DNA from: a virus
DNA length: 26,544 nucleotides
Strand: one strand, 5' to 3'
Virus record (IMG/VR): IMGVR_UViG_3300030419_004657
Coordinates: 1-26,544 of that record
Shown: positions 45 through 26,077 of the stretch, piece after piece
Position numbering within the stretch: position 1 is the first letter of the stretch
How the letters are laid out: each line of letters begins with the position of its first letter
Translations under genes and position numbers: made by a program
Notes under the pieces: generated by a model
The model's database searches: none
What the model saw: the letters and a program-made list of their open reading frames with translations, nothing else
Told to the model about the DNA's origin: nothing

Positions 45-575
45 ATGATATTAATACTTGAAGGCATTGATTGCGCGGGTAAAACTTGGATGGCTGAAAG
101 ACTATTAAAAGAATTACCAAATACTTATTTAATTAAGCATGGTAATAGGCCTACTGAAGACACTCCTGCTGCATCTTTCACACTATATAAAAACTATAAA
201 GCAATGTTAGATACTTATCAGTTTGCTATTAAACCGGCAGGAGGCACCCTAATTTTGGATAGATTTTATATGTCTGAATTAGTTTATGGGCCAATTACTA
301 GAAGATGTAATCTATTAACTCCGGACTACGAAAAAGAGCTAGAAGGCAGGATAAAAGAATTCCCTCATTTATATGTTGAAATTACTGCAAGCCGTGACCA
401 GATTATTGAGCGCATGAAAACAAGAGGTGAATTTTATTTAAAGGTTGAACACCTTGACAGTATTATGGAAGAATATGCCGAATTCTATGACGGCACTAAA
501 TTAAATAGAGCAAGAATAAAATCAGGAGAATCGAGTATTGATTTTCTAAAAAATGAAAGGCTAAAAGATGTTTAA
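45..575 (+). CDS. P-loop deoxynucleoside monophosphate kinase (thymidylate kinase-like)
   Basis: A 176-residue cytoplasmic P-loop kinase. Residues 7-14 (GIDCAGKT) are a Walker A loop at the very N-terminus. An Asp-Arg pair at 72-73 followed by a Ser and a Tyr (LDRFYMSELVYG) matches the DR(Y/F)..S motif of thymidylate kinases. Arg-rich residues around 114-132 fit the LID. At 176 residues it is slightly shorter than bacterial Tmk (about 205-215). The expected reaction is dNMP plus ATP to dNDP. The start at 45 has GAGGAG six bases upstream. It opens a row of nucleotide-metabolism genes beside two thymidylate-synthase/hydroxymethylase homologues, so it could phosphorylate a modified dNMP, as T4 gp1 does for hydroxymethyl-dCMP. 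That substrate is inference. The alternative is ordinary dTMP kinase or deoxynucleoside kinase activity. Confidence 0.8.
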   Translation: MILILEGIDCAGKTWMAERLLKELPNTYLIKHGNRPTEDTPAASFTLYKNYKAMLDTYQFAIKPAGGTLILDRFYMSELVYGPITRRCNLLTPDYEKELEGRIKEFPHLYVEITASRDQIIERMKTRGEFYLKVEHLDSIMEEYAEFYDGTKLNRARIKSGESSIDFLKNERLKDV

Positions 576-888: not shown

Positions 889-1311
889 ATGCTAGAATTT
901 AAAAAATTACACCCGGATGCTATTATACCAACAAGAGCTCATAATTCTGATGCAGGGATGGATGTATATAGTGTTGAAGATATACGTATTCCAGCAAGAG
1001 GGGATATATTAACAGGTTTGGGGTTAGCTTCTAAATTTCCAAATGGACATGCTTTATTAGTATATAATAAATCAGGTAGAGCAACCAAACTTAAATTAGA
1101 TAAAGGCGCAGAAGTAATTGACGCAGGTTATAGAGGTGAAATACATGTTCACTTGTTTAATCATTCTGATGTGAATGTTGTAATTAAAAAAGGGGAAAAA
1201 ATTGCACAGCTAATTTTAGTACCAATTTGGGCAGGCCAACCTATTGAAGTTGATGAACTTGATGATACTGAAAGAGGCGATGGTGGCTTTGGAAGCTCAG
1301 GCATAAAATAA
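889..1311 (+). CDS. dut: dUTPase (dUTP diphosphatase, trimeric family)
   Basis: Hydrolyses dUTP to dUMP and pyrophosphate, keeping uracil out of DNA and supplying dUMP. All five motifs of the trimeric dUTPase family are present in the 140-residue product: DAGMDV (21-26), NKSGRA (60-65), VIDAGYRGEI (76-85), KGEKIAQLI (101-109) and the C-terminal glycine-rich RGDGGFGSSG (129-138). I chose the ATG at 889, with GAGGAA at 878-883 upstream, over an in-frame TTG at 838, because 889 directly follows the previous stop and gives the usual family length. It sits with a dCMP deaminase gene further along and a uracil-DNA glycosylase domain in the polymerase, so the phage appears to police uracil closely. 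Confidence 0.93.
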   Translation: MLEFKKLHPDAIIPTRAHNSDAGMDVYSVEDIRIPARGDILTGLGLASKFPNGHALLVYNKSGRATKLKLDKGAEVIDAGYRGEIHVHLFNHSDVNVVIKKGEKIAQLILVPIWAGQPIEVDELDDTERGDGGFGSSGIK

Positions 1312-2079
1312 ATGTTTGTCCAAGTTACAGGCAAAAACATGTCTGAACTTTGGTTCAACCTTTTAGTACATACTGCCACAGGCAATCAACATTCTTATTA
1401 TTATCCTACTATGTATTCTCGAAGAGTATATGGTTTTACGGAAGGAATACATTTTGATGATACGATTATAGAAAAAGATTTCTATAAGTATTCAGGATAT
1501 AATAAAGATATGAAACTTAATAGACTTAGAGAGAGTTATTTTGGCCCAAAGGTTGAAAAACAATATGATTTATTAGTTTCCCAAATTAGACAATTACAAC
1601 CAAGACAGGCTAGAGGATTAATTAGTTTTTCTGAGCCAGCTTTTAATAGAACTGATAGACTTAAATGTTTAGACAGTTTATATATACAAAAGTCAACTAT
1701 GACTGAATATGAAGCTTTGATTGTATTTAGAAATACAGAAATATGGCCAAAGACTTATATGGATTTTGAATTTTTAAATGAAATGTTAGAAGGATTTGTA
1801 GAACAACGAGTTAGATGTACTTTATTTTCATGCTTTATGACCTCGTCATTTATAAATATGCACCAGGCTCCAACTGCCGCAATGATGATGAGGAAATATG
1901 GTATTAGAGACTGGAACTCATCATTTAAAGAAATGCTTCTGAGATTTAAAGACAAATTCGGTGATCCTTCTTGTTTAGAGACTGTTAAAATGCAATGGAT
2001 TAAAAGAGTATTAACAAGAACATATAGACTGTTTGAAGAAGACGGTGTTGATATTGATATGTTGATAGAAGGTAAATAA
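1312..2079 (+). CDS. Diverged thymidylate-synthase-fold protein (putative pyrimidine hydroxymethylase paralogue A)
   Basis: A 255-residue protein. Residues 85-165 follow the core of thymidylate synthase. Cys119 (LKC) lies where the catalytic Cys is expected. It is followed 21 residues later by Arg140 (FRNTEIW), matching the phosphate-binding Arg166 of E. coli ThyA, with Glu143 at the Asp169 position. Asp151 then falls exactly at the Asn177 position, the residue that separates dUMP from dCMP recognition. His184 (INMHQ) is a reasonable match to His207, but the following Tyr is lost. The N-terminal 80 residues and C-terminal 70 residues are not recognisable. It resembles the second homologue at 3839 more than any host-type ThyA. 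It could be an active hydroxymethylase, an inactive partner subunit, or an enzyme acting on a related nucleotide. The start at 1312 abuts the dUTPase stop; Met10 is an alternative. Confidence 0.55.
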   Translation: MFVQVTGKNMSELWFNLLVHTATGNQHSYYYPTMYSRRVYGFTEGIHFDDTIIEKDFYKYSGYNKDMKLNRLRESYFGPKVEKQYDLLVSQIRQLQPRQARGLISFSEPAFNRTDRLKCLDSLYIQKSTMTEYEALIVFRNTEIWPKTYMDFEFLNEMLEGFVEQRVRCTLFSCFMTSSFINMHQAPTAAMMMRKYGIRDWNSSFKEMLLRFKDKFGDPSCLETVKMQWIKRVLTRTYRLFEEDGVDIDMLIEGK

Positions 2080-3095
2080 TGGAAAAATTTGCTATTTCAA
2101 CTTTAACTTCTAGAAATAAAATTGGCTTTCTAACTGATTTAGTAAATAGTATGGAAGGTTTACCTAAATTTCCTTGGTACATTTATTCTAATGGTAGTGA
2201 TGAAAAACAAGAACAATTTTTAAAATCCCCATTTATTACTAACCGCTGTATAGTAAAATTTGGCCAGGAAAATAAAGGTGTAGGCTATGGGATTAATCAA
2301 GCTGCAGAAATGGTAAAGCATTATAAATACACTTTATTTATAGAAGATGATTGGTATCATTTGCCCGTTGGGCTCACAGGCTACAAAATTAGTTGGCTCT
2401 ATGATTGTATAGACTATTTAGATGAAAACCCTGATGTTGATGGAATTGTCTTAAGGAAATATATTTGGAGGTCAGAGGTCTCTATGCACAATCACCATTT
2501 GGCTTTTAATTCTGAAACTGATAAGATTATTAAATACCAAGGAATACAAATCATCACTACTAATTTTGATTATGCTAACAGTCCCCACATTAGAAGGAAT
2601 AAATCTTGTTATGAAAAAGGTATTTTTCCACAAATAGAACACCCGGAAGAAACTAAACCTGTTGGAGCTAATTGGGCGGGTAATATACCTGATAAAATAG
2701 CCGGTCATTTTGGTAGTGAAGGTCAAGCGGTCCAAAAGGGAAAAGAAAATGGTTTAAAATTTGTTGGATTATTAAATGGGATTTTTACTCATGAATATGA
2801 TAGTAAAAAATGGAAAAATAAAGATTTAGGCTGTGGTGAATATTCAGTAGGGGAATCTACTTGTAAATATGGCTTTTTTGATAGAGAAGATGTCTTTTGT
2901 CAAGTATGTTCTAATAAAGAAGATTTAACTTATTATAAAGAGCATTTTGAGCGGTTTTACCAGCTATTAGATCTATATGATAACAATAAACAAAATGCTA
3001 TCAGTTATATCCGCTCAAAGATTAAAGAAGAGGATAGTACTATGGATCTAAAGTTTGAACATTCACATTTTACAACAAAAAAGAGGGGCGTATGA
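2079..3095 (+). CDS. GT-A fold (GT2-like) glycosyltransferase
   Basis: A 338-residue putative glycosyltransferase. The N-terminal part shows GT-A features: a strand plus SNGSDE at 37-42, the NKGVGYGINQAAEM block at 65-78 typical of family 2 enzymes, and FIEDDW at 87-92 as the metal and nucleotide-sugar binding acidic motif. The C-terminal half contains several Cys residues (for example CQVC) and many aromatics and is not recognised. There is no membrane segment, so it should act in the cytoplasm. It lies between two thymidylate-synthase-fold genes and next to an Nmad1-like gene, with a one-base overlap upstream and ATGA overlap downstream. That suggests a sugar is moved to a hydroxymethylated base or nucleotide, but a virion or cell-surface target cannot be excluded. 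Confidence 0.65.
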   Translation: MEKFAISTLTSRNKIGFLTDLVNSMEGLPKFPWYIYSNGSDEKQEQFLKSPFITNRCIVKFGQENKGVGYGINQAAEMVKHYKYTLFIEDDWYHLPVGLTGYKISWLYDCIDYLDENPDVDGIVLRKYIWRSEVSMHNHHLAFNSETDKIIKYQGIQIITTNFDYANSPHIRRNKSCYEKGIFPQIEHPEETKPVGANWAGNIPDKIAGHFGSEGQAVQKGKENGLKFVGLLNGIFTHEYDSKKWKNKDLGCGEYSVGESTCKYGFFDREDVFCQVCSNKEDLTYYKEHFERFYQLLDLYDNNKQNAISYIRSKIKEEDSTMDLKFEHSHFTTKKRGV

Positions 3096-3433
3096 AAGAG
3101 TATGAGAAAGTAGCAAAAGAAATCGGCAAGTTAGTTGCTGAAAAAAACAAAGCTTATGGAGACTCATTTGGACAAGCACATCGAATTTTAAAGGTATTAT
3201 ATCCTAATGGTATTAAGCCTGATGGTTATATGGATTTTTTAACTATAACACGAATTATCGATAAGTTGTTTAGATTAGCTAATGAAAAGGAGGCTTTTGA
3301 GGAGAGCCCTTGGCGAGATATTGCAGGTTATGCTATATTAGGGGCTGCAAATGATGAGGCAATATTAACAGAAGAAGATGGTGACTCAGATATGAGTTAC
3401 GATATAAAAGGAAAGGCAGAAACAAATGACTAG
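3092..3433 (+). CDS. DUF1599 / Nmad1-like (nucleotide modification associated domain 1) protein
   Basis: A 113-residue, largely helical protein. The pattern of an N-terminal helix, then KNKAYGDSF (residues 18-26), an RIIDKLFRLAN helix around 54-64, an acidic patch and DIAGYAILGA around 75-84 matches my recollection of the DUF1599/Nmad1 family. That family was proposed from gene neighbourhoods to take part in nucleotide or base modification and often travels with thymidylate-synthase-like enzymes. Its biochemical role is not firmly known. Residues 88-113 form a charged, probably flexible tail. It overlaps the glycosyltransferase gene by ATGA and the nuclease gene by 8 bases, inside the putative modification cassette. 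A search against PF07659 would settle the assignment. Confidence 0.6.
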   Translation: MKEYEKVAKEIGKLVAEKNKAYGDSFGQAHRILKVLYPNGIKPDGYMDFLTITRIIDKLFRLANEKEAFEESPWRDIAGYAILGAANDEAILTEEDGDSDMSYDIKGKAETND

Positions 3434-3803
3434 ATATTTTTATCAAGCAAAATTATTAAGAGTTGTAGATGGTGACACTATTGATGCTCTTATTGATGTG
3501 GGATTTGATATTTGGGTAAAGAAGCGTATCCGCTATATGGGGCTGGATACTTGGGAATCTCGAACAAGAGATTTAGAAGAAAAGAAAAAAGGCTTAGCAG
3601 CAAAAGCTAGAAATAAAGAATTACTTGAAGGTAATGATAGTAAATTTTTAGTTCAAAGTCATGGATTAGGTAAATATGGAAGACTTTTAGGTGAAGTATT
3701 TATTGGTGATGATGATGCTCCAATGAGTGTTAACCAAATCTTAATCCAAGAAGGCCACGCTTATGTATATGATGGCGGTACCAAGAAAGTTTTTGGTGGA
3801 TAA
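3426..3803 (+). CDS. Micrococcal (SNase-type) nuclease
   Basis: A 125-residue thermonuclease-fold protein. VVDGDT (13-18) matches the first active-site strand. Arg36, Asp41, Thr42 and Glu44 in RYMGLDTWE line up with Arg35, Asp40, Thr41 and Glu43 of staphylococcal nuclease, and Arg86 in KYGRLLGEV lines up with Arg87. All catalytic residues are therefore present, and the expected activity is calcium-dependent phosphodiester cleavage of DNA or RNA. There is no signal peptide, so it should act inside the infected cell or be packaged. Host DNA breakdown for nucleotide salvage is a plausible role, with modified phage DNA perhaps protected; that part is inference. It is slightly shorter than secreted homologues. 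Confidence 0.85.
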   Translation: MTRYFYQAKLLRVVDGDTIDALIDVGFDIWVKKRIRYMGLDTWESRTRDLEEKKKGLAAKARNKELLEGNDSKFLVQSHGLGKYGRLLGEVFIGDDDAPMSVNQILIQEGHAYVYDGGTKKVFGG

Positions 3804-3838
3804 TCATATATTAATTAATAACTAATCACGGAGAATTA

Positions 3839-4573
3839 ATGACGAAACCTGTACACGAGTGTATTGAAGAAGCTGTTTTAGACTTATATAAAAATGGCAA
3901 CGAAGTAAAACCTCTTAAATGGCAATCAACTGAAGTTGAGTACCCAATGATTGAGGTAACTCAACGTTTTTATCAAATGAAAATGCCAAGTAATATAACT
4001 ATACTTCAAAGTCAAACAAAAGCTGACCAGCCTTGGGCAGAAGACCACTTTCAAGAACGTGTATCAGGAGAACCATTAAACCCAGGTAATCAATATTATA
4101 ATTGGCCTTATTATGATCACGGTAAAGATAATGACCGTTTTCGTGAAGGAGATAAACAATTTAGCCATTCTTATATGGAAAGATATTGGCCCCCTCGTGA
4201 TTTAAAAGGTATACGTTATAATTATGGTGATTTAGATCATCTTATTGAGCGTATGAAAAAAGATCCATTAACTAGACAAGCTTATCTTTCGGTATGGTAT
4301 CCGGAAGACCAAGTTGATGTTGGAGAAAGAGTACCATGCACATTGGGATATCATTTTATGATACGAGATAACAGGTTACACTGTACTTATCTAATTCGTA
4401 GTTGTGATATACGTAGACATTTTAAAAATGATATTTATATGACAATTAGATTAGCTCAATGGGTACAGGATAAGCTTGAAATGGATTTACAAATGGGTGA
4501 TTTAAATATGTGGATTGGTTCTCTACATGCTTGGGCCTTCGAAAGAAACATGTTAAAGAACGGTACTGTTTAA
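3839..4573 (+). CDS. Thymidylate synthase family enzyme, putative dCMP/dUMP hydroxymethylase (paralogue B)
   Basis: A 244-residue member of the thymidylate synthase/pyrimidine hydroxymethylase family. VPCTLGYHF holds the catalytic Cys167. Exactly 20 residues on, as in E. coli ThyA, comes IRSCD with Arg187, Ser188 and Asp190 (Arg166, Ser167, Asp169). Asp198 falls on the Asn177 position, and an Asp there is the signature of dCMP-using enzymes such as T4 gp42. DLQMGDLNMWIGSLHAW aligns without gaps to the ThyA segment ending HLY, giving His230 for His207 and Trp232 for Tyr209. The likely reaction is transfer of a one-carbon unit from methylene-tetrahydrofolate to C5 of dCMP, leaving hydroxymethyl. 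A gap of 35 bases with GGAG precedes the start. The gene overlaps the methyltransferase start by one base. Confidence 0.8.
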   Translation: MTKPVHECIEEAVLDLYKNGNEVKPLKWQSTEVEYPMIEVTQRFYQMKMPSNITILQSQTKADQPWAEDHFQERVSGEPLNPGNQYYNWPYYDHGKDNDRFREGDKQFSHSYMERYWPPRDLKGIRYNYGDLDHLIERMKKDPLTRQAYLSVWYPEDQVDVGERVPCTLGYHFMIRDNRLHCTYLIRSCDIRRHFKNDIYMTIRLAQWVQDKLEMDLQMGDLNMWIGSLHAWAFERNMLKNGTV

Positions 4574-5541
4574 TGAACGCAGGAGGAATATATGGTGGTA
4601 TTGGTGGTGCCTTATTAGGAGCTCAATGGGCCGGATTTGATATTAAATTTAATATTGAACCTCGACCTTTTTTTAATACTGAGACCTTTAAACATAATTT
4701 TGAGAAAGCTAATTTTACTCAATCATTTGAAAAGCATACAGATTTAACAGGTAAGAATATTCAATTAATAATTGGTTCGCCCGATTGTAAACAGTTTAGT
4801 AATTTAGGTACTAAAAGAAAAGACAAAGGTAAATTACATGAGTTAGACCCTTTTGATTTTGATTATGTAAAATTTTTAAGGGCTATGAATATTATAGAAC
4901 CAGACTGTTTTATTTTAGAAAATGTACCGCAGATTTTAAAGACTTTATGGTTTGAAGAAAATAAATTGAAATTTAAAGGTAGTGAAGAAGCTATTTATCT
5001 TTTACCAAAATATGATATCCAAACTATTATATTAAATGCTAAAGATTTTGGAGTACCCCAGAGCCGTAAAAGGGCTTTTATAATTGGTAGTAAAAAATTT
5101 AAACCAGAATTTAGTTTTGAGGCTTTAGAGAAAATGGGATTTGTAGACTTAATTAGAGAACACTATAAAGGAAAAATATTAAAAGATGTTTTAAACATTC
5201 CAGAAGGTGTAGCAAACAATAAGCCGCCAAGACATTCTGTTAAAAGGGTTGAAGGTTTCTCTAAATTAAAAATTGGAGAATCTTATTATGGTACTCAGAA
5301 CAATTTAAGATTAGATCCCAATAAACATTCAGGGACTATTGCTTCTCATTGTTCACGTTTTGTTCACCCCTCTGAAAGTAGAGTTTTAACGGCAAGAGAG
5401 AATGCTAGAATTATGGGATTTCCCGATGATTTCATCTTTTATGGAAATGAATCTGGGCAATTAGACCAAATTGGAAAATCTATTGTCCCCCAAGTATCAA
5501 TGGGAATTGCTTATTATATTAAAGAGATGCTAAATGGCTAA
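4573..5541 (+). CDS. DNA (cytosine-5-)methyltransferase
   Basis: A 322-residue C5-cytosine methyltransferase that should transfer a methyl group from S-adenosylmethionine to cytosine in a specific DNA site. Motif I is GGIYGGIGGALLG (4-16). Motif IV is GSPDCKQFS with catalytic Cys72 (the family norm is PPC or PC, so PDC is unusual). Motif VI is ENV at 116-118, motif VIII QSRKRAF, motif IX TARENARIMGFPDDF and motif X GQLDQIGKSIVPQ. A target-recognition region of modest size lies between VIII and IX. The start at 4573, overlapping the hydroxymethylase stop by one base, places motif I at the usual distance; an upstream in-frame ATG at 4510 would add 21 unmatched residues. No restriction enzyme gene is visible, so it looks like a solitary phage methyltransferase, probably for evading host restriction. 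Confidence 0.92.
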   Translation: MNAGGIYGGIGGALLGAQWAGFDIKFNIEPRPFFNTETFKHNFEKANFTQSFEKHTDLTGKNIQLIIGSPDCKQFSNLGTKRKDKGKLHELDPFDFDYVKFLRAMNIIEPDCFILENVPQILKTLWFEENKLKFKGSEEAIYLLPKYDIQTIILNAKDFGVPQSRKRAFIIGSKKFKPEFSFEALEKMGFVDLIREHYKGKILKDVLNIPEGVANNKPPRHSVKRVEGFSKLKIGESYYGTQNNLRLDPNKHSGTIASHCSRFVHPSESRVLTARENARIMGFPDDFIFYGNESGQLDQIGKSIVPQVSMGIAYYIKEMLNG

Positions 5542-7189: not shown

Positions 7190-7346
7190 TAATATAAAAG
7201 AGATTTCAGTTGTTAAATCATTAATAGAGATTGGATTACAGGACCCAGAAATAAGCCCTGGTGAGGCTATTACTGGCAGAGAAATCATTAAACAATTAAA
7301 TAAATGCGCAACATTAATGCAAAAACAAAATGAGTCGGCTAAATAG
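7161..7346 (+). CDS. Small hypothetical protein, 61 aa
   Basis: ATG at 7161 overlaps the primase 3' end by 29 bases and is preceded by AAAGGTGAG. The product begins MDKVIALRFD and is acidic to neutral, predicted alpha/beta with a C-terminal helix around GREIIKQLNKCATLM. It overlaps the deaminase start by 17 bases. No membrane segment or known motif is visible. The position inside a continuous overlapping gene string and the ribosome binding site support it, but I do not recognise it. Confidence 0.55.
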   Translation: MDKVIALRFDNIKEISVVKSLIEIGLQDPEISPGEAITGREIIKQLNKCATLMQKQNESAK

Positions 7347-7761
7347 AAAAGAATATTTTATGTCTATAGCAGAACTTGCAGCTAAAAGGGGTACATGCCC
7401 TAGAGCTCAAGTAGGTTGTGTGTTAGTTGATGAAAGGAACCGAGTTAAAGCTACAGGCTATAATAGTAGTCATCCGGGTTCTTGTCATTGTGATGATCAC
7501 GGTTGTTTAGTTATTGGTGACCATTGTATTAGAACTATTCATGCTGAAGTAGCCGCAGTATTAAATCTAGAAAAACAATATAAGAATTTAACTGCTTTCG
7601 TAACTCATGAGCCTTGTATGAATTGCTATAAAGTAATAACTGCGGCAGGAGTCACTAAGATTTATTATAAAGAAGCTTATGGTAATCACCCCGAAGAGTA
7701 TTATGAATTACAAAATGAAATAGGTGTTGAAATGATAGAGTATAATAATGTCCCGTTTTAA
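7330..7761 (+). CDS. dCMP deaminase (zinc-dependent)
   Basis: A 143-residue cytidine/deoxycytidylate deaminase family enzyme that converts dCMP to dUMP. The zinc site is HAE (His71, Glu73 as proton shuttle) and PCMNC (Cys96, Cys99). The segment TCPRAQVGCVLV (22-33) and the Cys-rich loop before HAE (Cys52, Cys54, Cys59, Cys66, then IRTIHAE) are typical of phage and eukaryotic dCMP deaminases rather than of guanine or tRNA deaminases. It would feed dUMP to thymidylate synthesis. If one of the hydroxymethylase homologues uses dCMP, the two enzymes compete for the same pool. The start at 7330 overlaps the upstream small ORF. Confidence 0.9.
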   Translation: MSRLNRKEYFMSIAELAAKRGTCPRAQVGCVLVDERNRVKATGYNSSHPGSCHCDDHGCLVIGDHCIRTIHAEVAAVLNLEKQYKNLTAFVTHEPCMNCYKVITAAGVTKIYYKEAYGNHPEEYYELQNEIGVEMIEYNNVPF

Positions 7762-8032
7762 AATAAAAGAAATGATTGAGATGATTGATTTATCAATCCA
7801 GACTTTAGAAAATTTAAAAGAAGAACTTCAAAGTAATGAAAAGGATTTGCTTAAATTTTATAAAAGGGGTAGCAAAAGAGCTGGAGTAAGGGTAAGAAGA
7901 TTATTAAAAAGATTAATGGACAGCGCACAGACTGTTAGACTAGATATATACAGACTATACAAAGAAAGAGACATATTTAAAGGAACTGAATTTGACAAAG
8001 ATTACAAAAGAGATAAACCTTCCGCTGAGTAA
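7748..8032 (+). CDS. Histone H1-like (Hc1-like) basic protein
   Basis: A 94-residue, Lys/Arg-rich helical protein. The segment FYKRGSKRAGVRVRRLL (residues 37-53) followed by a second basic helix matches the pattern of the chlamydial Hc1 family (an acidic or neutral N-terminal helix, then K..K.AG.RVR and a second amphipathic helix). A shorter paralogue with the same core lies at 11550. Such proteins bind DNA in bacteria; in phages the role is unknown, perhaps DNA compaction or host nucleoid remodelling. It overlaps the deaminase gene by 14 bases and the polymerase gene by 41. Assignment is by pattern only. Confidence 0.5.
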   Translation: MSRFKIKEMIEMIDLSIQTLENLKEELQSNEKDLLKFYKRGSKRAGVRVRRLLKRLMDSAQTVRLDIYRLYKERDIFKGTEFDKDYKRDKPSAE

Positions 8033-10415
8033 TTGCGGTGAATGTACTTTATATGATGAAAAAGCATATCACCCTCATAATTACTGGGGCAATCTAAATC
8101 AACCCGATGTATTATTCATTGGTGAAGCACCTGGACAGGCAGAAAAAACGACAGGATTAGCTTTCCAAGGTAGAGCGGGTAAACTTCTACAAAAAACTTT
8201 AAAAGAAATTGGAATTGATAATTTTGCTATTGCTAATGTAGTTGCTTGCAGACCCGAAGGTTTAAATGCTTATGGTAAAGTAGTTGATAGAAAACCAACT
8301 TCTACAGAAATAAGACATTGTGGAGAAAATTTAGATGCGATTATTAATCATATCAAGCCAAGATATATTGTAGCTTTAGGTGCTACTGCTTGTTCAAGAT
8401 TAAAAGTAAAAGGGGGAATTACATCAGTTAGAGGAGTAATGTCTGAAACACCGTATGGTAAAGTATTACCAATCTTCCACCCTGCTTATATATTACGCTC
8501 ACCAAATTTTAAAGTTGAGTTTAAACAAGATTTGAATTTATTAAAGAATTTTATTGACGGGAAAGTTGATATTAAAAAACCGCAAGGTGATTATATAATT
8601 ATTGAAGATCCAACTGAAATGGAAGCTCTTGAGAAAGATATGGCTTCAAGAAAAGCTTTTGCTTTTGATATTGAAACGGATGGATTAAGATTTTATAAAG
8701 ATACTATTATGGGAATTGGATTTTGTAATCGGGTTGGTCAAGCTTATTACGTACCTCTTTACCAATCAGTTAGTAAAGATCCTTATTGGGGTGAGCACCA
8801 AGCGAGGGTGTTAGAATCTTTAAAAAGGATCATGACCAACCCGGTTAAGAAAATTGCCCATAATGGTAAATTTGATATTAAGTTTATAGACCATCAGTGG
8901 GGTATTCAAACTAAAAACTTTGCAGTTGATACAATGTTACTTCATTATATACTTGATGAAAACCGTCCACACGGTTTAAAAACATTGGCAGGTTTTTATT
9001 TTCCTGAAATGAAAGATTATGATAAGCATTTACGTCAAGCTCTAACTATTAAAGATTTTGATGAAGAAAGTTTTGGTAATGTTCCTGTTGAAGTTTTAGG
9101 GCCTTATTGTGCTATGGATTGTGAAACAACCTATAGACTGGCAAAGAAGTTAGTACCAGAACTTAAAGGTAAGTTAAAGAAATTATTTTATAATTTTTAT
9201 ATGCCCCTATCAAAAGTCTATCAAGCAAGTGAATTAGTTGGAGTTAAAATTGATGTACCTTATATCAAAAAGATTTATAAAGAGAATTCAGAAAAACTTA
9301 TTGAAGTTGAAGCTAAAGTCTATGAATTAGCTGGCCGGGAACTTAATGTAAATTCTCCTAAACAATTAAATGAAGTATTATTTGAGAAGTTAGGATATCC
9401 AGTTTTGTTAGAAACTGCTACAAAAAAACCGAGTACTTCAGAGCTTGCTTTAAAGCTTTTAATAAAGAAGCTTGGTAAGAAAGCTCCAATTATACCTCTT
9501 ATTCTTGAATTTAGAGGGTTGAAAAAAATGAACACCACATACCTAAAACCTATGTTAGAGAAAGTAGATGGTAATGACCGCATTCATCCATCCTTTCTCT
9601 TGCATGGGACCGTTACAGGGAGGGTTTCTTCTAAAGGGCCTAATATTCAAAATATCCCAAGAGACCCCCGAATTAAAGGAATGTTTATACCTGAAGAAGG
9701 TTATAGATTTGTAGAAATTGATTATTCTCAAGCTGAATTAAGAGTTATGGCTTATTATTCAAAAGATAAATTAATGACTGAACAATATATAAATAGACAA
9801 GATATTCATCTTGCTACAGCTTCTTTTATATTTATGAAAGAACCAAAGGATGTAACTAAAGATGAACGTAAAACAGCAAAGCTTGTTAACTTTGGTTATC
9901 TTTATGGAGCTACACCTCAAAAAGCACATTCAAGTATTAATGAAAGGGTAGCTGCTGAAAAAGAAGTAATTACATTAAGAGAAGCTAAAATATTTAGAGA
10001 AAAATTCTTTGCTAATTACTTTGGTATAAACCGGTTTATTCTAAATACACGCAGGAATATATTAAAAACGGGTGAAATCAAAAGTTGTTTTGGTAGAATA
10101 AGAAGATTACCACAAGTAGAAAGCCCCCTTGAAGAGAAAAAAGCTGAAGCTCAAAGACAAGGCTTAAATGCTCTAATTCAAGGGACGGCTTCAGACCTTA
10201 CACAGCTTGCACTGATAAGAGTACACAAATTTCTCTTACCTTATAAATCAAGGTTCTTATTTACAGTACATGACGCTATAGTACTTGAGATTCATAAGAC
10301 TGAAGAACATTTAATTGAAGAAATAAAAGAAATTATGGAACAAAAAGTTAAAGGGTTTGATTTTCCACTTGAAGCTGATGTTGACATATTTAATAACCGT
10401 TGGGGCAATGATTAA
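7992..10415 (+). CDS. polA: Uracil-DNA glycosylase (family 4)-DNA polymerase I fusion
   Basis: An 807-residue replicative polymerase with three parts. Residues 10-190 are a family-4 uracil-DNA glycosylase: iron-sulfur ligands Cys15, Cys18, Cys86 and Cys110, motif GEAPGQAEKTTG (44-55), GRAGKLL (60-66) and HPAYILRS (163-170). Residues 220-385 are a DEDDy 3'-5' exonuclease: DIE (226-228), AHNGKFDIKF (289-298) and YCAMDCETTY (372-381). Residues 400-807 are the PolA core: motif A DYSQAELRV (577-585), motif B RKTAKLVNFGYLYG (626-639, Phe634 at the E. coli Phe762 position) and motif C VHDAIVLE (759-766). There is no 5'-3' exonuclease domain. The start is TTG at 7992 with AAAGGA upstream; no in-frame ATG precedes the first Cys ligand. 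Confidence 0.93.
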   Translation: MTKITKEINLPLSNCGECTLYDEKAYHPHNYWGNLNQPDVLFIGEAPGQAEKTTGLAFQGRAGKLLQKTLKEIGIDNFAIANVVACRPEGLNAYGKVVDRKPTSTEIRHCGENLDAIINHIKPRYIVALGATACSRLKVKGGITSVRGVMSETPYGKVLPIFHPAYILRSPNFKVEFKQDLNLLKNFIDGKVDIKKPQGDYIIIEDPTEMEALEKDMASRKAFAFDIETDGLRFYKDTIMGIGFCNRVGQAYYVPLYQSVSKDPYWGEHQARVLESLKRIMTNPVKKIAHNGKFDIKFIDHQWGIQTKNFAVDTMLLHYILDENRPHGLKTLAGFYFPEMKDYDKHLRQALTIKDFDEESFGNVPVEVLGPYCAMDCETTYRLAKKLVPELKGKLKKLFYNFYMPLSKVYQASELVGVKIDVPYIKKIYKENSEKLIEVEAKVYELAGRELNVNSPKQLNEVLFEKLGYPVLLETATKKPSTSELALKLLIKKLGKKAPIIPLILEFRGLKKMNTTYLKPMLEKVDGNDRIHPSFLLHGTVTGRVSSKGPNIQNIPRDPRIKGMFIPEEGYRFVEIDYSQAELRVMAYYSKDKLMTEQYINRQDIHLATASFIFMKEPKDVTKDERKTAKLVNFGYLYGATPQKAHSSINERVAAEKEVITLREAKIFREKFFANYFGINRFILNTRRNILKTGEIKSCFGRIRRLPQVESPLEEKKAEAQRQGLNALIQGTASDLTQLALIRVHKFLLPYKSRFLFTVHDAIVLEIHKTEEHLIEEIKEIMEQKVKGFDFPLEADVDIFNNRWGND

Positions 10416-20146: not shown

Positions 20147-20394
20147 TTCTTATCCTTTGCTTTATTTGAATGCTTGAACCAGAAATCAATTACTTTTCCA
20201 AACATTGCTATAAACCCACCTAATAATATATTCAATAAATCTCTATGAGTGTCATCTAATTCTAAAGTAGGATGGAATAATAAATATAATACCCAAGCAA
20301 ATAACGCAAACATCAGTAAACTGATAGTAAATTGCATCCAATCAGGTAATCCATCCCCTTGATGTATTACATCTCTATCTTTAATATTTTTCAT
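20143..20394 (-). CDS. Small two-helix membrane protein, possible holin
   Basis: An 83-residue protein with two predicted membrane helices: residues 20-41 (MQFTISLLMFALFAWVLYLL) and 53-73 (LLNILLGGFIAMFGKVIDFWF). A charged N-terminus (MKNIKDRDVIHQGDG) precedes them, an acidic loop (ELDDTHRD) separates them, and a Lys-rich tail (KHSNKAKDKK) follows. Size, topology and basic tail fit phage holins, which time lysis by making inner-membrane holes. No endolysin gene is visible nearby, so the role rests on topology alone. It overlaps the giant tail protein gene by 14 bases, with AGGAC upstream of the ATG. Confidence 0.6.
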   Translation of the reverse strand: MKNIKDRDVIHQGDGLPDWMQFTISLLMFALFAWVLYLLFHPTLELDDTHRDLLNILLGGFIAMFGKVIDFWFKHSNKAKDKK

Positions 20395-23300
20395 CTGTCC
20401 TAAATTTAACCGTAGTTTTCAATGCTTTAACATTGGTTGATATTTCTCTTAAATAACCTGATACTGAAAATTCTGATATTCCAGGGAACATAACTTCATC
20501 AATAATCTTTATTTTTCTCAATGCATTACCTGCTGGTACTGTAAAAGTTATTGTAGGATCAAAAGGTAAAGTAGCCTCAATAGCATACTTAGGATCTCCA
20601 TATTCTCTTAAATATTTTGAAGCCCAATATTCTGATTTATCATGTCTAATAAATCTATTATCTGGGAAGTTCCAATCTCTTTGACCATATTTAGCAATAG
20701 AGGTTGAATCTGCTGCTGTATAAATAGATCCTGAATCTTTTTCTAATCTAATTCCTTGGAATTTTAGATTAATAATATCTTTAGCATTAAATTTATCAGA
20801 AGTACTATCACATTTCCAAGACCAAGTCCCTAAACCTTCTGGTAGATCTTGTTGTAGAGAAGAATAAGGAGGAGGTTGTATAGCTCCATCTTCTGTTTGC
20901 AATATTAATGTGGCAGGAGCCATAGCATAATGAGCATTTAAAGTATCCCCCACTACAAAAGATGGATAAGTACCATTTAAATAAATATAAGCATTTTCTT
21001 CATCTATTGCTTTTATCCAAGCAGTCGGTCCTGAACTAAATATGCTAGTAGCAGCATTTGTTGTAGCTGTAGGTGAAGCACTATCTGCTTGGTCGGGTAA
21101 AGTTACGGTTTGTAGTTGTGATGTAGAAAGTGTAGTAACCAAGAATGAATAATGTTTATAGCTTTCTGGTGAATAAGAGGTAATCCTAGCACTAGCAAAA
21201 GGTCTAATATTATTTACTGTTAAACGAGTAACTGGCGTCCAAGTATGACCTGCACTTTCACAAGTAGATTTATCATTATAATGAGAATAGTTTCCTGCAG
21301 AACAAACCCCGTGGGAAGTATTTACATCATCTACTGCTGTAATCACTGTTACTCCTTCATCAGAATATCTTATACCATAATTTTTAACATTGGAACTTCC
21401 ATCACTATTAAGGTCACTTCCCGCATGGGCTGAAACAACGTTTATTGGAGTACCTGCTAATACTTCAAAACCTGGAGTAGATTCTAAGCTTAATTTATTT
21501 TTAGAAGTATCAACATCTGTTATGACTCTTCCTATTTGTTCATAGGTTGTAGGATTAGTAAATATTACTATTTCCCCTTTTTTAATAACTCTTTTTCCAC
21601 TAGCAAATAATGTATTTACATATACTGCAGCATCTGTAGTAGACATTTCTTTCATTACTACAACTTGTTTTGTTGGAGAGTGAGTTCTCCATTTAAATAA
21701 AGGTATTAATAGTCTACTACCTATATTAGTTATAGAATCTACTGCATTAGCTGTTGCTTCTGTTTCACTATCTTTAGTTAGTCTTCCCCCTCTAGTACAT
21801 ATTAAATTTACTGAAGCTTCTCTATGAGTTCTTGGAGTAATAGTAAATTCCCCATTAAATAATTGTTCATCAGTTAATACTTCTTCTCCTCCCACGTGTG
21901 TTACTTCCCACTCAATATCTTTAACCTGTGGTCTAAAAGGTTGAATAGAAATAACATTTCTAATATCATTATCAATGCCTTTTTTAATATCAATAACATC
22001 TCCATCAAGAGCATTTAAAGTGTGAGTGTTTGATTTCGAATCACGATTAATTAAGAAAAACTGTTCAACATCAAAACCAAATACCATATTGTTTGCTGTT
22101 GCCAATTTAGCTATAGCATCAAACCCTTTTAATCCTGTATAATCAGCAAGTTGTATTCTAGGATCAACTTCTCTATCATCAACTTTAAACCAGTGTTTAA
22201 TAGAGCCAAAAGCAAATTTAGATTTAGCTTTTTGAGAAGTCTGATACCAACCTCTATAATCATCAAATGCTGTAAATAGTGCTTCTCTTTCATTATCATT
22301 ACCTTTATCAACTAATCCCGTTACTACTTGACCGTGACCAATCATACCTTCATTACCATATAATTTTTTAGTAGTTGCAGGAGCTAAATCATCAATAAAA
22401 TTCCCCGCATTGAATGAACCTGCTGAAGCTGAATATAAATAATTTACTTTAATTCCAATCCCTATATTATCTCTAGTTGTAGAAGGAGATGGTGAAGCTT
22501 TTTGAATTCTGAAATATACGATACCATTATTAGTACCTATGTTTAAATCTGAAGCCCCAAACTTCCCTTGAGTATTAGTAAAACCTGTAAACCCTACTGC
22601 ATCATAACTTGTCCCATTTTGAATATCGTGATCTAAAACTTTTAAAGCATTACTTGTGCCTGCCCATACAAAAACTTCATGACAAGGTTCATAAGGACTA
22701 GAATCATTATATTCGGCTAATATAGAATCCCTTTTAAAACAAGTCCCAAATACTCCATTAGTACCATTGGTATTAGTACTCATATCACTGCTATAATGTA
22801 AGGTTAAGAATTTTCTAGTTTTATTATTAGCATTCCCTGCTGCATAATTAGCAAATCTTCCACTATCAGCACTGCCGTCCATATCTCCATTATAAACTGA
22901 AGCATCACTGGCTGAATCATAAATCTTTGTAGTACTAACAGAACCGGCAGAAAAACTACCTGTACCTAAAGCTACCCTATAAATATAACTACGGTTTAAA
23001 ATATCATCTTCATTAGATCCCGTGTATAAAGCACTGTGTGTTCTACTTTCATGAGTTGCAATATAAATATTACCTGATTCTCCACTACAAGCAGCAGTAC
23101 CATAAATTGGAACTACAGTATAACTGTGAGGTGTTACTGCTGATACACTTCGTGTAACAGGTGCAACATTTGTTGCTGTAATATCTGCAAGTGTTTTATC
23201 TTCACATTTATAAGAAGTCCATTTTAAATTGAAGTGGCCAGGGTTACTGGCTGTTGCGTCTGGATCCCAACGAAATCTTGAACCATCTGCAGGAGCAGTA

Positions 23301-26077
23301 CCGTCGAATTGTTGAAATACAATAACCCCTTTTCCTGAATCAGCTTCTTGATTAAATACAATACAGCCTTGTTGCCCATTTGTATATCTAACTGCTCCAT
23401 AAATTTCTTCTGTATCTTCTTCTCTTGCTGCTCTTTCTCCTAATCCTTGAACTACAACTGAACCATATCCAAAACCTTGATTACTTTTTTGTGCTGAGTT
23501 ATCATCAGCATTTAATCTTTGAATACCAGCACTAGGTGATGTCCCACTTCCAAAACCCTCTTGACCGGAAGTTTGATGAGGACCCATATCTGCAATAAAA
23601 GCTTCATTAGCATAAAAACTATCTGAGAATCCAAAATCATTACTTGCAGCAGTTGAATGATTAGTCATATCAATACTAGAATTATTATCAATATTTCTAG
23701 ACCCAACTTGTTGTCGAGTAGAAGTATCTGGTTGTAATCCATCTTCTAAATCATTAGGACCATACATTGGATGCATCCCGTCACTTCCAATTTGTGCAAT
23801 ATTACGTCTATCCTGTGCAATCCCATTAAACTCCATTACTAATTCTTCATTTCTTTGTCCCGCCCAAGTTAAAGCAGGTGAGCCCCACCCTGTATTTTGA
23901 AGATGGTTACTAACATCGTCATTTCTATATGGGGGTGGTTGTAAATCTTCTATATCTGTATGGCTTGTAGCTGTATACCCGGAACCCGCTGCAGATAATA
24001 CCTCATCATTTAATTTTGTAGTATATCCACTTTTATTATCCAAAATAATATCTCTATACTGATTATCAATTTGAGCTTGGGTTACAGTACCAGAAGTAAC
24101 CGAATCATTAAACATATTATAAAACCATTGATGTGGACCTGCATGTGAAGACCATAACCTTGAAGCCCCAGTTGATTGAGGTCCTGTGGTTTCTCCTTGA
24201 AATTGGTGAGTTGGTCTACGAATACTAGTTGCTCCAATAACTTTAGAATAATGTGTTAATGGTATATTTTCTGCTGCTTGTCTTGATAAATTATGCCAAT
24301 TATCCCAGTGATGAGCAAGTGCTAAACTAACATTAGTCATAACCACATCACTTGAATGATTTTCAGCTGTAATAAATACACTTAAATAGTCAGCGTTATG
24401 CCAACCTGATATTGCATTAGTCTCTAATGCTGCAAAATAATAATCTCCATTTCCAAAATCAGTTACTGTATAACCATCTGTGTTTGCCATTCCAATTGGT
24501 CCATAAACTTGAGAATCATCAACTGTTGATGAAGCAGAAGATGAATTAGAAACTTGAATTTTAAAATTAGTACCCGTAATCCTTAATTTATAAACTGACA
24601 TATTATTTACAGGAGCAGATAGAACAAATTTTACTCCATCAGAATCACTACTAGTACCCATTGTTAATACTTTAGTAGTACTATTTAAAGTGAAAGTACT
24701 TGACCCAACTCTTGTCCACCCTGTTGGTGCTGTAGTACCCCCACTAGTTGAAGCCCCTGTCCATAACGAGTTTCCATTTGTTGCAGTACCTGGTACTAAT
24801 TCTAATGTTTCTCCAAATATATCATTAGCAGGTCTTTGAGTATCATCAAATCCTGAAACTTGGGGATGCATCCAATGTGTACCTCTTCGAGCTTCATGGG
24901 TATTACTATATCCTTGCTGTCCAGCAGGGCCAAAGGGTAAAGTAGTATAACGATAAGCAGTAAAATTACCAACTGAAGCTCTACCATAAGATAATTTATG
25001 AGTTTCTAATTCTCCTGTCTTAACTGTTTCATTAGCAACTTGTGTATCAGTTTCTCTTGAAGCCCCTGCTTTACTAGAGTGGTCAAAAGGATACATCATT
25101 CTAAAGTCCCATTGGCCTGGCCAATAATTAGTTATATCTTGAGAACGAGTAGCATCATTTAAATAATGACCTGCTCCTATTGAATTTACTCCAGGCTTCC
25201 ATTTAAAAATAGTAGCAGGAGGGCAAACCCAATTTAATTTATGTGTCTTATTCTCAATATCAGTTTGAGTATCTCCAAAATCCTTCCAAATCGTTCCATA
25301 TAAAGTTTCGTCATAAGTGTTATACCATAAATTTTGGATAGGAGCAAATCTGAAATTGTCAGAACTCGAATCTGTGGTTGCTAGTTTTGTCCATTTATCT
25401 TCATCAATGTCATATTGCCACAATTCCGGTTGTCTGTCTTGACTGGTAACTGATAACCCGGCGGATGTATTATTAGTATTTACTCCACCAGTAGCTACGT
25501 AAATTATGCTCCTATCCTCATTTGTTGTTAAAGCAGTCATTGGGATAGCATTAGGAGATGGTGTAAAACTCTCTCCATCAAAACCAGGATAGGTGTCTAA
25601 ACTCCAATAACCTAATTTATCATCTATAGTTTTAACAGTTAATAAATCTGATGATACTCTTTTATCATCTGGTAAGTTATTCTGATTATCCTTAAATACT
25701 TCTATTAAAATAGTATTTAATAAAAAACTTAATTTTCTATTTTCATGATATTGGTCTCCATCTTTAACTTTCTCTGCATTTAAATCTGATAATGCTTTAT
25801 CCATTGATGATACTGTAATAGTAGCAGTTGGAGTGTTACGTGAAGTCTTAATATCTTGTATAATACCTGCACTAACTTCATAGGTTTCTGTTTTCCCGTC
25901 TGCAAAAGTTAATTCTAATCCTACCACAACTACATGATTTTGCCAATTTGTATTTGATCCCCCTTTAGTAGGTGAAAAAATAGCTTTATGACCTGTATCA
26001 GTTGTATAAGTTCTATCTATAAACCTATCAAACAGTCTATCATCTTCTCTTTTGCTTCTTTTAATTTTAACAGCCAT
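20381..26077 (-). CDS. Giant tail/baseplate hub-like structural protein, 1898 aa
   Basis: A very large secreted-type virion protein without a signal peptide. Residues 1-125 resemble the start of phage tail/hub proteins (ELTFADGKTETYEVSAGIIQ, TATITVSSMDKAL). Residues 178-290 contain kelch-like propeller sequence (RSIIYVATGG, ELWQYDIDEDKWTKLA). About 430-595 looks like a beta-sandwich or carbohydrate-binding module (LWTGASTSGG, GWTRVGSSTFTL, GDYYFAALETN). The middle is Ser/Thr/Gly/Asn-rich with further propeller-like strands. From about 1290 a hub-like block returns (GLKGFDAIAKLATANNMVF, EQFFLINRD) and runs to the C-terminus. Residues 1592-1614 hold a Cys/Trp motif. The start overlaps the upstream gene by one base. 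Exact function (hub, tail tip or receptor binding) is inferred. Confidence 0.75.
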   Translation of the reverse strand: MAVKIKRSKREDDRLFDRFIDRTYTTDTGHKAIFSPTKGGSNTNWQNHVVVVGLELTFADGKTETYEVSAGIIQDIKTSRNTPTATITVSSMDKALSDLNAEKVKDGDQYHENRKLSFLLNTILIEVFKDNQNNLPDDKRVSSDLLTVKTIDDKLGYWSLDTYPGFDGESFTPSPNAIPMTALTTNEDRSIIYVATGGVNTNNTSAGLSVTSQDRQPELWQYDIDEDKWTKLATTDSSSDNFRFAPIQNLWYNTYDETLYGTIWKDFGDTQTDIENKTHKLNWVCPPATIFKWKPGVNSIGAGHYLNDATRSQDITNYWPGQWDFRMMYPFDHSSKAGASRETDTQVANETVKTGELETHKLSYGRASVGNFTAYRYTTLPFGPAGQQGYSNTHEARRGTHWMHPQVSGFDDTQRPANDIFGETLELVPGTATNGNSLWTGASTSGGTTAPTGWTRVGSSTFTLNSTTKVLTMGTSSDSDGVKFVLSAPVNNMSVYKLRITGTNFKIQVSNSSSASSTVDDSQVYGPIGMANTDGYTVTDFGNGDYYFAALETNAISGWHNADYLSVFITAENHSSDVVMTNVSLALAHHWDNWHNLSRQAAENIPLTHYSKVIGATSIRRPTHQFQGETTGPQSTGASRLWSSHAGPHQWFYNMFNDSVTSGTVTQAQIDNQYRDIILDNKSGYTTKLNDEVLSAAGSGYTATSHTDIEDLQPPPYRNDDVSNHLQNTGWGSPALTWAGQRNEELVMEFNGIAQDRRNIAQIGSDGMHPMYGPNDLEDGLQPDTSTRQQVGSRNIDNNSSIDMTNHSTAASNDFGFSDSFYANEAFIADMGPHQTSGQEGFGSGTSPSAGIQRLNADDNSAQKSNQGFGYGSVVVQGLGERAAREEDTEEIYGAVRYTNGQQGCIVFNQEADSGKGVIVFQQFDGTAPADGSRFRWDPDATASNPGHFNLKWTSYKCEDKTLADITATNVAPVTRSVSAVTPHSYTVVPIYGTAACSGESGNIYIATHESRTHSALYTGSNEDDILNRSYIYRVALGTGSFSAGSVSTTKIYDSASDASVYNGDMDGSADSGRFANYAAGNANNKTRKFLTLHYSSDMSTNTNGTNGVFGTCFKRDSILAEYNDSSPYEPCHEVFVWAGTSNALKVLDHDIQNGTSYDAVGFTGFTNTQGKFGASDLNIGTNNGIVYFRIQKASPSPSTTRDNIGIGIKVNYLYSASAGSFNAGNFIDDLAPATTKKLYGNEGMIGHGQVVTGLVDKGNDNEREALFTAFDDYRGWYQTSQKAKSKFAFGSIKHWFKVDDREVDPRIQLADYTGLKGFDAIAKLATANNMVFGFDVEQFFLINRDSKSNTHTLNALDGDVIDIKKGIDNDIRNVISIQPFRPQVKDIEWEVTHVGGEEVLTDEQLFNGEFTITPRTHREASVNLICTRGGRLTKDSETEATANAVDSITNIGSRLLIPLFKWRTHSPTKQVVVMKEMSTTDAAVYVNTLFASGKRVIKKGEIVIFTNPTTYEQIGRVITDVDTSKNKLSLESTPGFEVLAGTPINVVSAHAGSDLNSDGSSNVKNYGIRYSDEGVTVITAVDDVNTSHGVCSAGNYSHYNDKSTCESAGHTWTPVTRLTVNNIRPFASARITSYSPESYKHYSFLVTTLSTSQLQTVTLPDQADSASPTATTNAATSIFSSGPTAWIKAIDEENAYIYLNGTYPSFVVGDTLNAHYAMAPATLILQTEDGAIQPPPYSSLQQDLPEGLGTWSWKCDSTSDKFNAKDIINLKFQGIRLEKDSGSIYTAADSTSIAKYGQRDWNFPDNRFIRHDKSEYWASKYLREYGDPKYAIEATLPFDPTITFTVPAGNALRKIKIIDEVMFPGISEFSVSGYLREISTNVKALKTTVKFRTDEKY

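Follow-up and report, generated by a model that had tools for sequence, protein, structure and literature searches.

Paired phage genes of the thymidylate synthase superfamily as a candidate cytosine-modifying module

Introduction

Replacement of Asn by Asp at position 177 turns thymidylate synthase (TS) towards deoxycytidine monophosphate (dCMP). Asp177 is a mark of phage contigs in which cytosine is modified, and the phage TS genes that modify cytosine can be told from ordinary ones by positions 177 and 147 (PMC8670742). In gp42, the dCMP hydroxymethylase of phage T4, cytosine is recognised by Asp179, and the water for the hydroxymethyl group is activated by Asp145 (PMC6400193). An Asp at the specificity position is also found in AfhB, a flavin-dependent dCMP hydroxylase or 5-hydroxy-dCMP synthase of Mosigvirus (structures 9iqu and 9iqc), and in MilA, a hydroxymethylase of mildiomycin biosynthesis whose substrate is cytidine monophosphate (CMP). 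The present work concerns two neighbouring genes, here called A and B, of the IMG/VR virus record IMGVR_UViG_3300030419_004657. This record was analysed over its whole length of 26,544 bases (33% G+C), referred to as the window, and is probably a genome fragment.

To our knowledge, the known members of the TS superfamily are homodimers. In TS, Arg126 crosses into the phosphate site of the other subunit. Phage T4 also encodes a deoxynucleoside monophosphate (dNMP) kinase, a dCMP deaminase and a dUTPase; an A-like partner is not known to us from T4, nor a conserved partner gene for AfhB. An earlier sequence-only reading of the window had placed both A and B in the superfamily, each with a dCMP-type Asp, an assignment that the analysis below supports. 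The two genes and the residues discussed are as follows, residues of TS being numbered as in Escherichia coli ThyA.

1312..2079, plus strand: gene A, 255 amino acids, with Tyr76 (1537-1539), Cys119 (1666-1668), Arg140 (1729-1731) and Asp151 (1762-1764)
3839..4573, plus strand: gene B, 244 amino acids, with Tyr112 (4172-4174), Arg146, Arg164, Cys167 (4337-4339), Arg187 (4397-4399), Asp198 (4430-4432), His230 and Trp232

Protein B resembles dCMP enzymes

B matches PF00303 above the cut-off (E=1.3e-9) and phrog_160 (E=1.2e-27), and the best sequence match of the B profile in the PDB is MilA (E=7e-7). The AlphaFold2 model of B has a predicted local distance difference test (pLDDT) score of 74 and is weak at residues 97-129 and 154-164. 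Compared with the PDB by Foldseek, it gives 396 matches at E<=0.001 with structures of the TS superfamily at the top, the best being AfhB (9iqu/9iqc), followed by TS and MilA. The likeness to AfhB lies in the fold, sequence identity being about 15%. By its sequence, B is demonstrably a member of the TS superfamily.

Residues were compared in an alignment of 61 non-redundant relatives of B with E. coli ThyA and T4 gp42. As the sequence-only reading had stated, B aligns to ThyA without a gap from Cys167 to Asp198 (Cys146 to Asn177). It had also raised the objection that Asn197 rather than Asp198 might contact the base; in the alignment, Asp198 falls in the column of ThyA Asn177 and T4 Asp179 and is Asp in 61/61, while column 197 varies between Asp and Asn. 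Equally invariant are Cys167 (Cys146), Arg187 (Arg166), Tyr112 (Tyr94), Arg146 (Arg126) and His230 (His207). Besides the fold and Asp179, T4 gp42 shares with B the nucleophilic Cys148, the Thr149 that follows it, Arg168 and Tyr96. In contrast to ThyA, B has Gln147 at the position of Arg127 (61/61) and Thr168, which is Thr or Ser in relatives, at that of His147; T4 gp42 has Arg124 where B has this Gln. Arg164, also found in 61/61, occupies the position of ThyA Leu143 and T4 Asp145, three residues before the Cys, where AfhB has Glu and MilA has Asp. Trp232 does stand at the position of Tyr209, as had been noticed, but it is a lineage detail without the meaning given to it, since 56/61 relatives have Phe and two have Trp.

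Asn177, characteristic of TS proper, is replaced by Asp in A, in B and in a third homologue, C, described below. Because of this Asp and of the residue rules cited above (PMC8670742), B looks like a dCMP enzyme. Its identity as a plain hydroxymethylase is disfavoured by the single diagnostic residue that could be tested in the alignment, the Arg164 at the position of T4 Asp145.

Protein A, a probable reduced relative of thymidylate synthase

Taken alone, the A protein of the window has no match in Pfam, PHROGs or the PDB, and a tblastn search of 50,697 phage records with it gave no match even at E=10. The Cys, Arg and Asp singled out by the sequence-only reading are found at residues 119, 140 and 151, the stretch from Cys to Asp being one residue longer than that of ThyA. 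When A was shuffled, 11% of the sequences contained the bare spacing Cys-x18-22-Arg-x10-Asp/Asn, as did 13/195 unrelated open reading frames (ORFs) of comparable length; in A alone, the spacing is therefore no evidence.

A wider family was reached through profiles. When a profile of close relatives of A was compared with 3,402 ORFs from the fetched loci (L numbers below), the best matches outside the lineage were proteins of about 260-300 residues whose genes, in most cases, immediately precede B homologues of unrelated phages (L129, E=8.5e-4; L118, L081, L135 and L098). Iteration, from which all B and C sequences were excluded, converged at 50 proteins. In the reverse direction, a profile of 38 members from outside the window's lineage recovers the window's A at E=5.4e-7. 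The 42-row alignment of the family has a mean column identity of 17%, and its only invariant columns are Tyr76, Cys119, Arg140 and Asp151, corresponding to Tyr94, Cys146, Arg166 and Asn177 of TS. The Cys, Arg and Asp are in register in profile comparisons, while Tyr76 is equated with Tyr94 from its order along the chain.

The same 38-member profile, run against the 3,402 ORFs, returns B proteins as its first seven non-A matches (E 0.0065 to 0.041). Among 177,635 PDB sequences, the only matches of the A profile below 0.1 are 9iqc (E=0.035) and 9iqu (E=0.066), that is, the TS-fold dCMP hydroxylase, and Cys, Arg and Asp are again in register. Alignment of the A and B profiles by hhalign scores 34.7 with the three residues in register (P=5e-4, probability 31%), compared with no more than 20.7 in 40 column-shuffled controls and 24.5 when the columns were reversed. 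With close relatives only, the same comparison had a probability of 0.2% and became informative only once the wider family had been built. A Pfam check of A against PF00303, suggested by the sequence-only reading, gave no match below 0.1 in any of the 42 members. Two PHROGs of unknown function, phrog_34294 and phrog_13667, are matched by 22/42 and 16/42 members, respectively, the window's own A having no match below 0.01 to either. Two public records label A homologues 'pyrimidine hmase'.

Since these individually weak scores agree with one another and with the invariant quartet, A is assigned to the TS superfamily; the comparisons strongly indicate a minimal member reduced to the catalytic core. 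It had been described as the eroded copy of the two. This is not the case: the ratio of non-synonymous to synonymous substitution is 0.03-0.08 for A and 0.06-0.14 for B, and A is the more conserved protein in relatives (77% vs 58% in L012). The A family is a large, previously undescribed phage family under strong purifying selection.

A and B form a conserved gene pair

In loci found with patterns derived from A alone, B lies downstream on the same strand in 104/107, in 83 of them within 200 bases. Conversely, among 66 loci found through B that have at least 1.5 kb of upstream sequence, 49 carry A upstream on the same strand. The order of the two genes is strict and they often overlap. Their distances are correlated (Mantel r=0.68, n=47 pairs, 0/2000 permutations as high). 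A is carried by 12 relatives among environmental viral contigs and by one contig binned with an archaeal metagenome-assembled genome. Profile-confirmed pairs in isolates are Muddy gp47/gp46, Zuko gp75/gp76, Gibbous gp43/gp42, Polewnik 770/760, YenM_P744 ORF027/028 and that of ctfzr933, and in Pseudomonas phage Almagne an A matched by tblastn precedes an annotated thymidylate synthase. Searches with three A queries matched 97 phage records altogether; in these, A is nearly always labelled 'hypothetical protein'. A separate thymidylate synthase, ThyX, is encoded alongside in 7/18 records with A; because the two coexist, the pair is unnecessary for thymidine monophosphate (dTMP) in those seven.

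The search of a limited literature collection retrieved no description of paired or heterodimeric TS proteins of phages. The DNA of Stenotrophomonas phage AXL3 is resistant to enzymes whose sites contain G/C, and this phage was considered as support for the pair. It was rejected because gp29 is a kinase that shows no similarity to A and gp28 is only a remote relative of B. The sequence-only reading had offered two different modified nucleotides or a heteromeric enzyme as explanations for the two paralogues, and these are still the right alternatives. The conserved pairing favours joint action of A and B, and at the level of sequence it is compatible with a heteromer and with sequential enzymes alike.

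Loci with B alone and a third homologue

Approximately 19 loci have B without A nearby. When the 19 records were searched over their whole length, A was absent from 18 and present in the record of L131. On the B tree, the absence of A takes three changes. Residues in B that correlate with the presence or absence of A (e.g. His172 vs Trp) were set aside, the pattern following the tree. A gene resembling asparagine synthase, with glutaminase and Asn_synthase domains, lies near B in 17/19 loci without A (examples are L094:4639-5952, L117:161-1600, L084, L087, L093, L079, L097 and L134) vs 1/157 loci with A, and at record level in 0/18 records with A vs 4/6 without. This pattern is partly a lineage effect, yet it recurs in separate branches. 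As the asparagine-synthase-like gene stands where A is absent, it suggests that two alternative partners may handle the product of B.

The third TS homologue, C (about 296 residues), is encoded in relatives about 6 kb upstream of A; in the window, this region precedes the start of the fragment. C has Asp at the position of Asn177 (LLPYD) and is closest to MilA, the best PDB match of its profile, and to AfhB. It was located as follows in five relatives:

L002:2007-2897: gene C
L004:2512-3402: gene C
L009:1853-2743: gene C
L011:2116-3009: gene C
L012:857-1756: gene C

Genomic context

The first part of the window is a dense operon of nucleotide genes, in the order dNMP kinase, dUTPase, A, possible glycosyltransferase, small protein, nuclease, B, C5-cytosine methyltransferase, primase and dCMP deaminase. 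Replication genes of the window encode a primase, a family-A DNA polymerase, a RecA-like recombinase and SbcCD-like nucleases.

45..575, plus strand: dNMP (thymidylate-type) kinase (PF02223 1.1e-6, phrog_761 4.5e-23)
889..1311, plus strand: dUTPase (PF00692 1.5e-29, phrog_135)
2079..3095, plus strand: cargo gene, possible family-2 glycosyltransferase (PF00535 E=0.0022, below the Pfam cut-off)
3092..3433, plus strand: cargo gene (phrog_1485 3.7e-8, a PHROG of unknown function)
3426..3803, plus strand: Staphylococcal-nuclease-like protein (PF00565 3.9e-10, phrog_452 4e-38)
4573..5541, plus strand: C5-cytosine DNA methyltransferase (PF00145 8.4e-41), overlapping the end of B
7330..7761, plus strand: dCMP deaminase (PF00383 1.9e-21, phrog_174)
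7992..10415, plus strand: family-A DNA polymerase with an N-terminal uracil-DNA-glycosylase domain (PF03167 1.8e-27, PF01612, PF00476 1e-97)

The start codon of A directly follows the stop codon of the dUTPase gene. The methyltransferase gene adjoins B in relatives of the same lineage too, and the dCMP deaminase is present in 113/157 loci with A. In the window's lineage, A and B are 1.8 kb apart because cargo genes sit between them. The interval between A and B or its flank (window 2079-3095; L009, L011, L012, L046) is a cargo site whose content varies between close relatives: it includes the possible glycosyltransferase, for which blastp found no match in any of 176 other loci, a weakly sulfotransferase-like protein, a cellulase-like sugar-binding protein (PF12876 2.8e-75) and methyltransferase-like proteins.

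Several features lie outside the pair. In locus L134:940-3102, an intein that contains a homing-endonuclease-like domain apparently splits the C5-cytosine methyltransferase. Proteins similar to the polymerase with the uracil-DNA-glycosylase domain are encoded by at least 66 ORFs in the fetched loci. Just ahead of this polymerase gene, positions 7748-8032 encode a small histone H1-like (Hc1) protein (PF07432 5.4e-9), and positions 20381-26077 of the minus strand encode a protein of 1,898 residues without PHROG match.

A model for the A-B pair and its alternatives

We propose, with a probability of roughly 0.6, that A and B constitute one phage module altering a cytosine deoxynucleotide before polymerisation, A being most likely the heteromer partner of B. 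The superfamily of B, the invariant Asp of both proteins and the order and co-inheritance of the pair are given by sequence; the substrate dCMP, joint action and the heteromer are what we infer. In this model, Cys167 of B would attack C6 of dCMP, Arg187 would hold the phosphate and Asp198 would read and protonate the cytosine, so that dCMP could be altered at C5 by B before replication. The quartet Tyr76, Cys119, Arg140 and Asp151 of A would bind and activate a cytosine nucleotide. The invariant Arg146 of B would complete the phosphate site of A; with an equivalent of Arg126 kept in B and no invariant one in the A family, joint action is most simply pictured as a heteromer. Nucleotides would be supplied and phosphorylated by the dNMP kinase, dUTPase and dCMP deaminase of the operon. 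A more specific version, which we consider rather unlikely, is an obligate heteromer whose subunits, one complete and the other reduced, build an undescribed C5-substituted dCMP, a nucleophile held by Arg164 of B replacing the water of the T4 enzyme.

Several observations weigh against the proposed module. The loci with B and without A indicate that A is not always needed by B, and no A-B fusion proteins were found. The similarity of A to the TS superfamily stays below the usual cut-offs of single searches by HMMER and hhalign (hhalign probability 18-31%), and an AlphaFold2 model of A, built from nine close relatives before the wider family was known, was helical and unusable (pLDDT 43.7). The window's A has Arg98-Gln99 at the position of Arg146-Gln147 of B, and A of this lineage may not need the Arg of B. 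B lacks the Asp145 used by the T4 dCMP hydroxymethylase. Finally, the same phage encodes a C5-methyltransferase, which needs some unmodified cytosine; the presence of its gene beside B implies that not all cytosine is modified.

The alternative to which we grant some weight, while still thinking it on the unlikely side, is that of sequential enzymes: B would make a C5-modified dCMP, and A would then act in a second step, its substrate being either this product or another cytosine nucleotide. A keeps the Cys, Tyr, Arg and Asp and may thus be catalytic, and its tie to B (104/107), while B occurs without A, is what a later step would predict. The asparagine-synthase-like gene near B where A is absent looks as if a different second step were then used. 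Nevertheless, the strict order, frequent overlap and shared fold suit a complex at least equally well, and an invariant residue that would reach the phosphate site in trans, which a homodimer should need, is missing from the A family.

The database annotation, in which B is mostly named 'thymidylate synthase', would make B an ordinary enzyme that forms dTMP from deoxyuridine monophosphate (dUMP), and A an accessory protein without relation to it. The neighbouring dUTPase and dCMP deaminase would indeed provide dUMP. This we regard as highly improbable given the universal Asp at position 177 of B, its Gln for Arg127 and Thr or Ser for His147 throughout, the dCMP hydroxylase as best Foldseek match and the separate ThyX of several A-bearing records. 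Slighter still is the chance that A lies outside the TS superfamily, as another conserved partner of B in which the Cys, Arg and Asp match by coincidence. The frequency of the bare spacing in shuffles, the absence of a Pfam TS match and the helical model would fit such a coincidence, but the TS quartet comprises the sole invariant residues of 42 diverse proteins. Moreover, two independent profile searches, of ORFs and of the PDB, both place members of the TS superfamily at the top with the residues in register, and the 'pyrimidine hmase' label of two A homologues points the same way.

Implications

About 100 isolated phages in the searched collection carry A, among them Mycobacterium phage Muddy, whose host, M. 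smegmatis, is readily handled. If the proposed module is real, these phages would modify cytosine by means of a two-gene TS module, with a bearing on restriction and modification-dependent defence, and the TS superfamily would acquire either a second, conserved subunit or a reaction step new to it.

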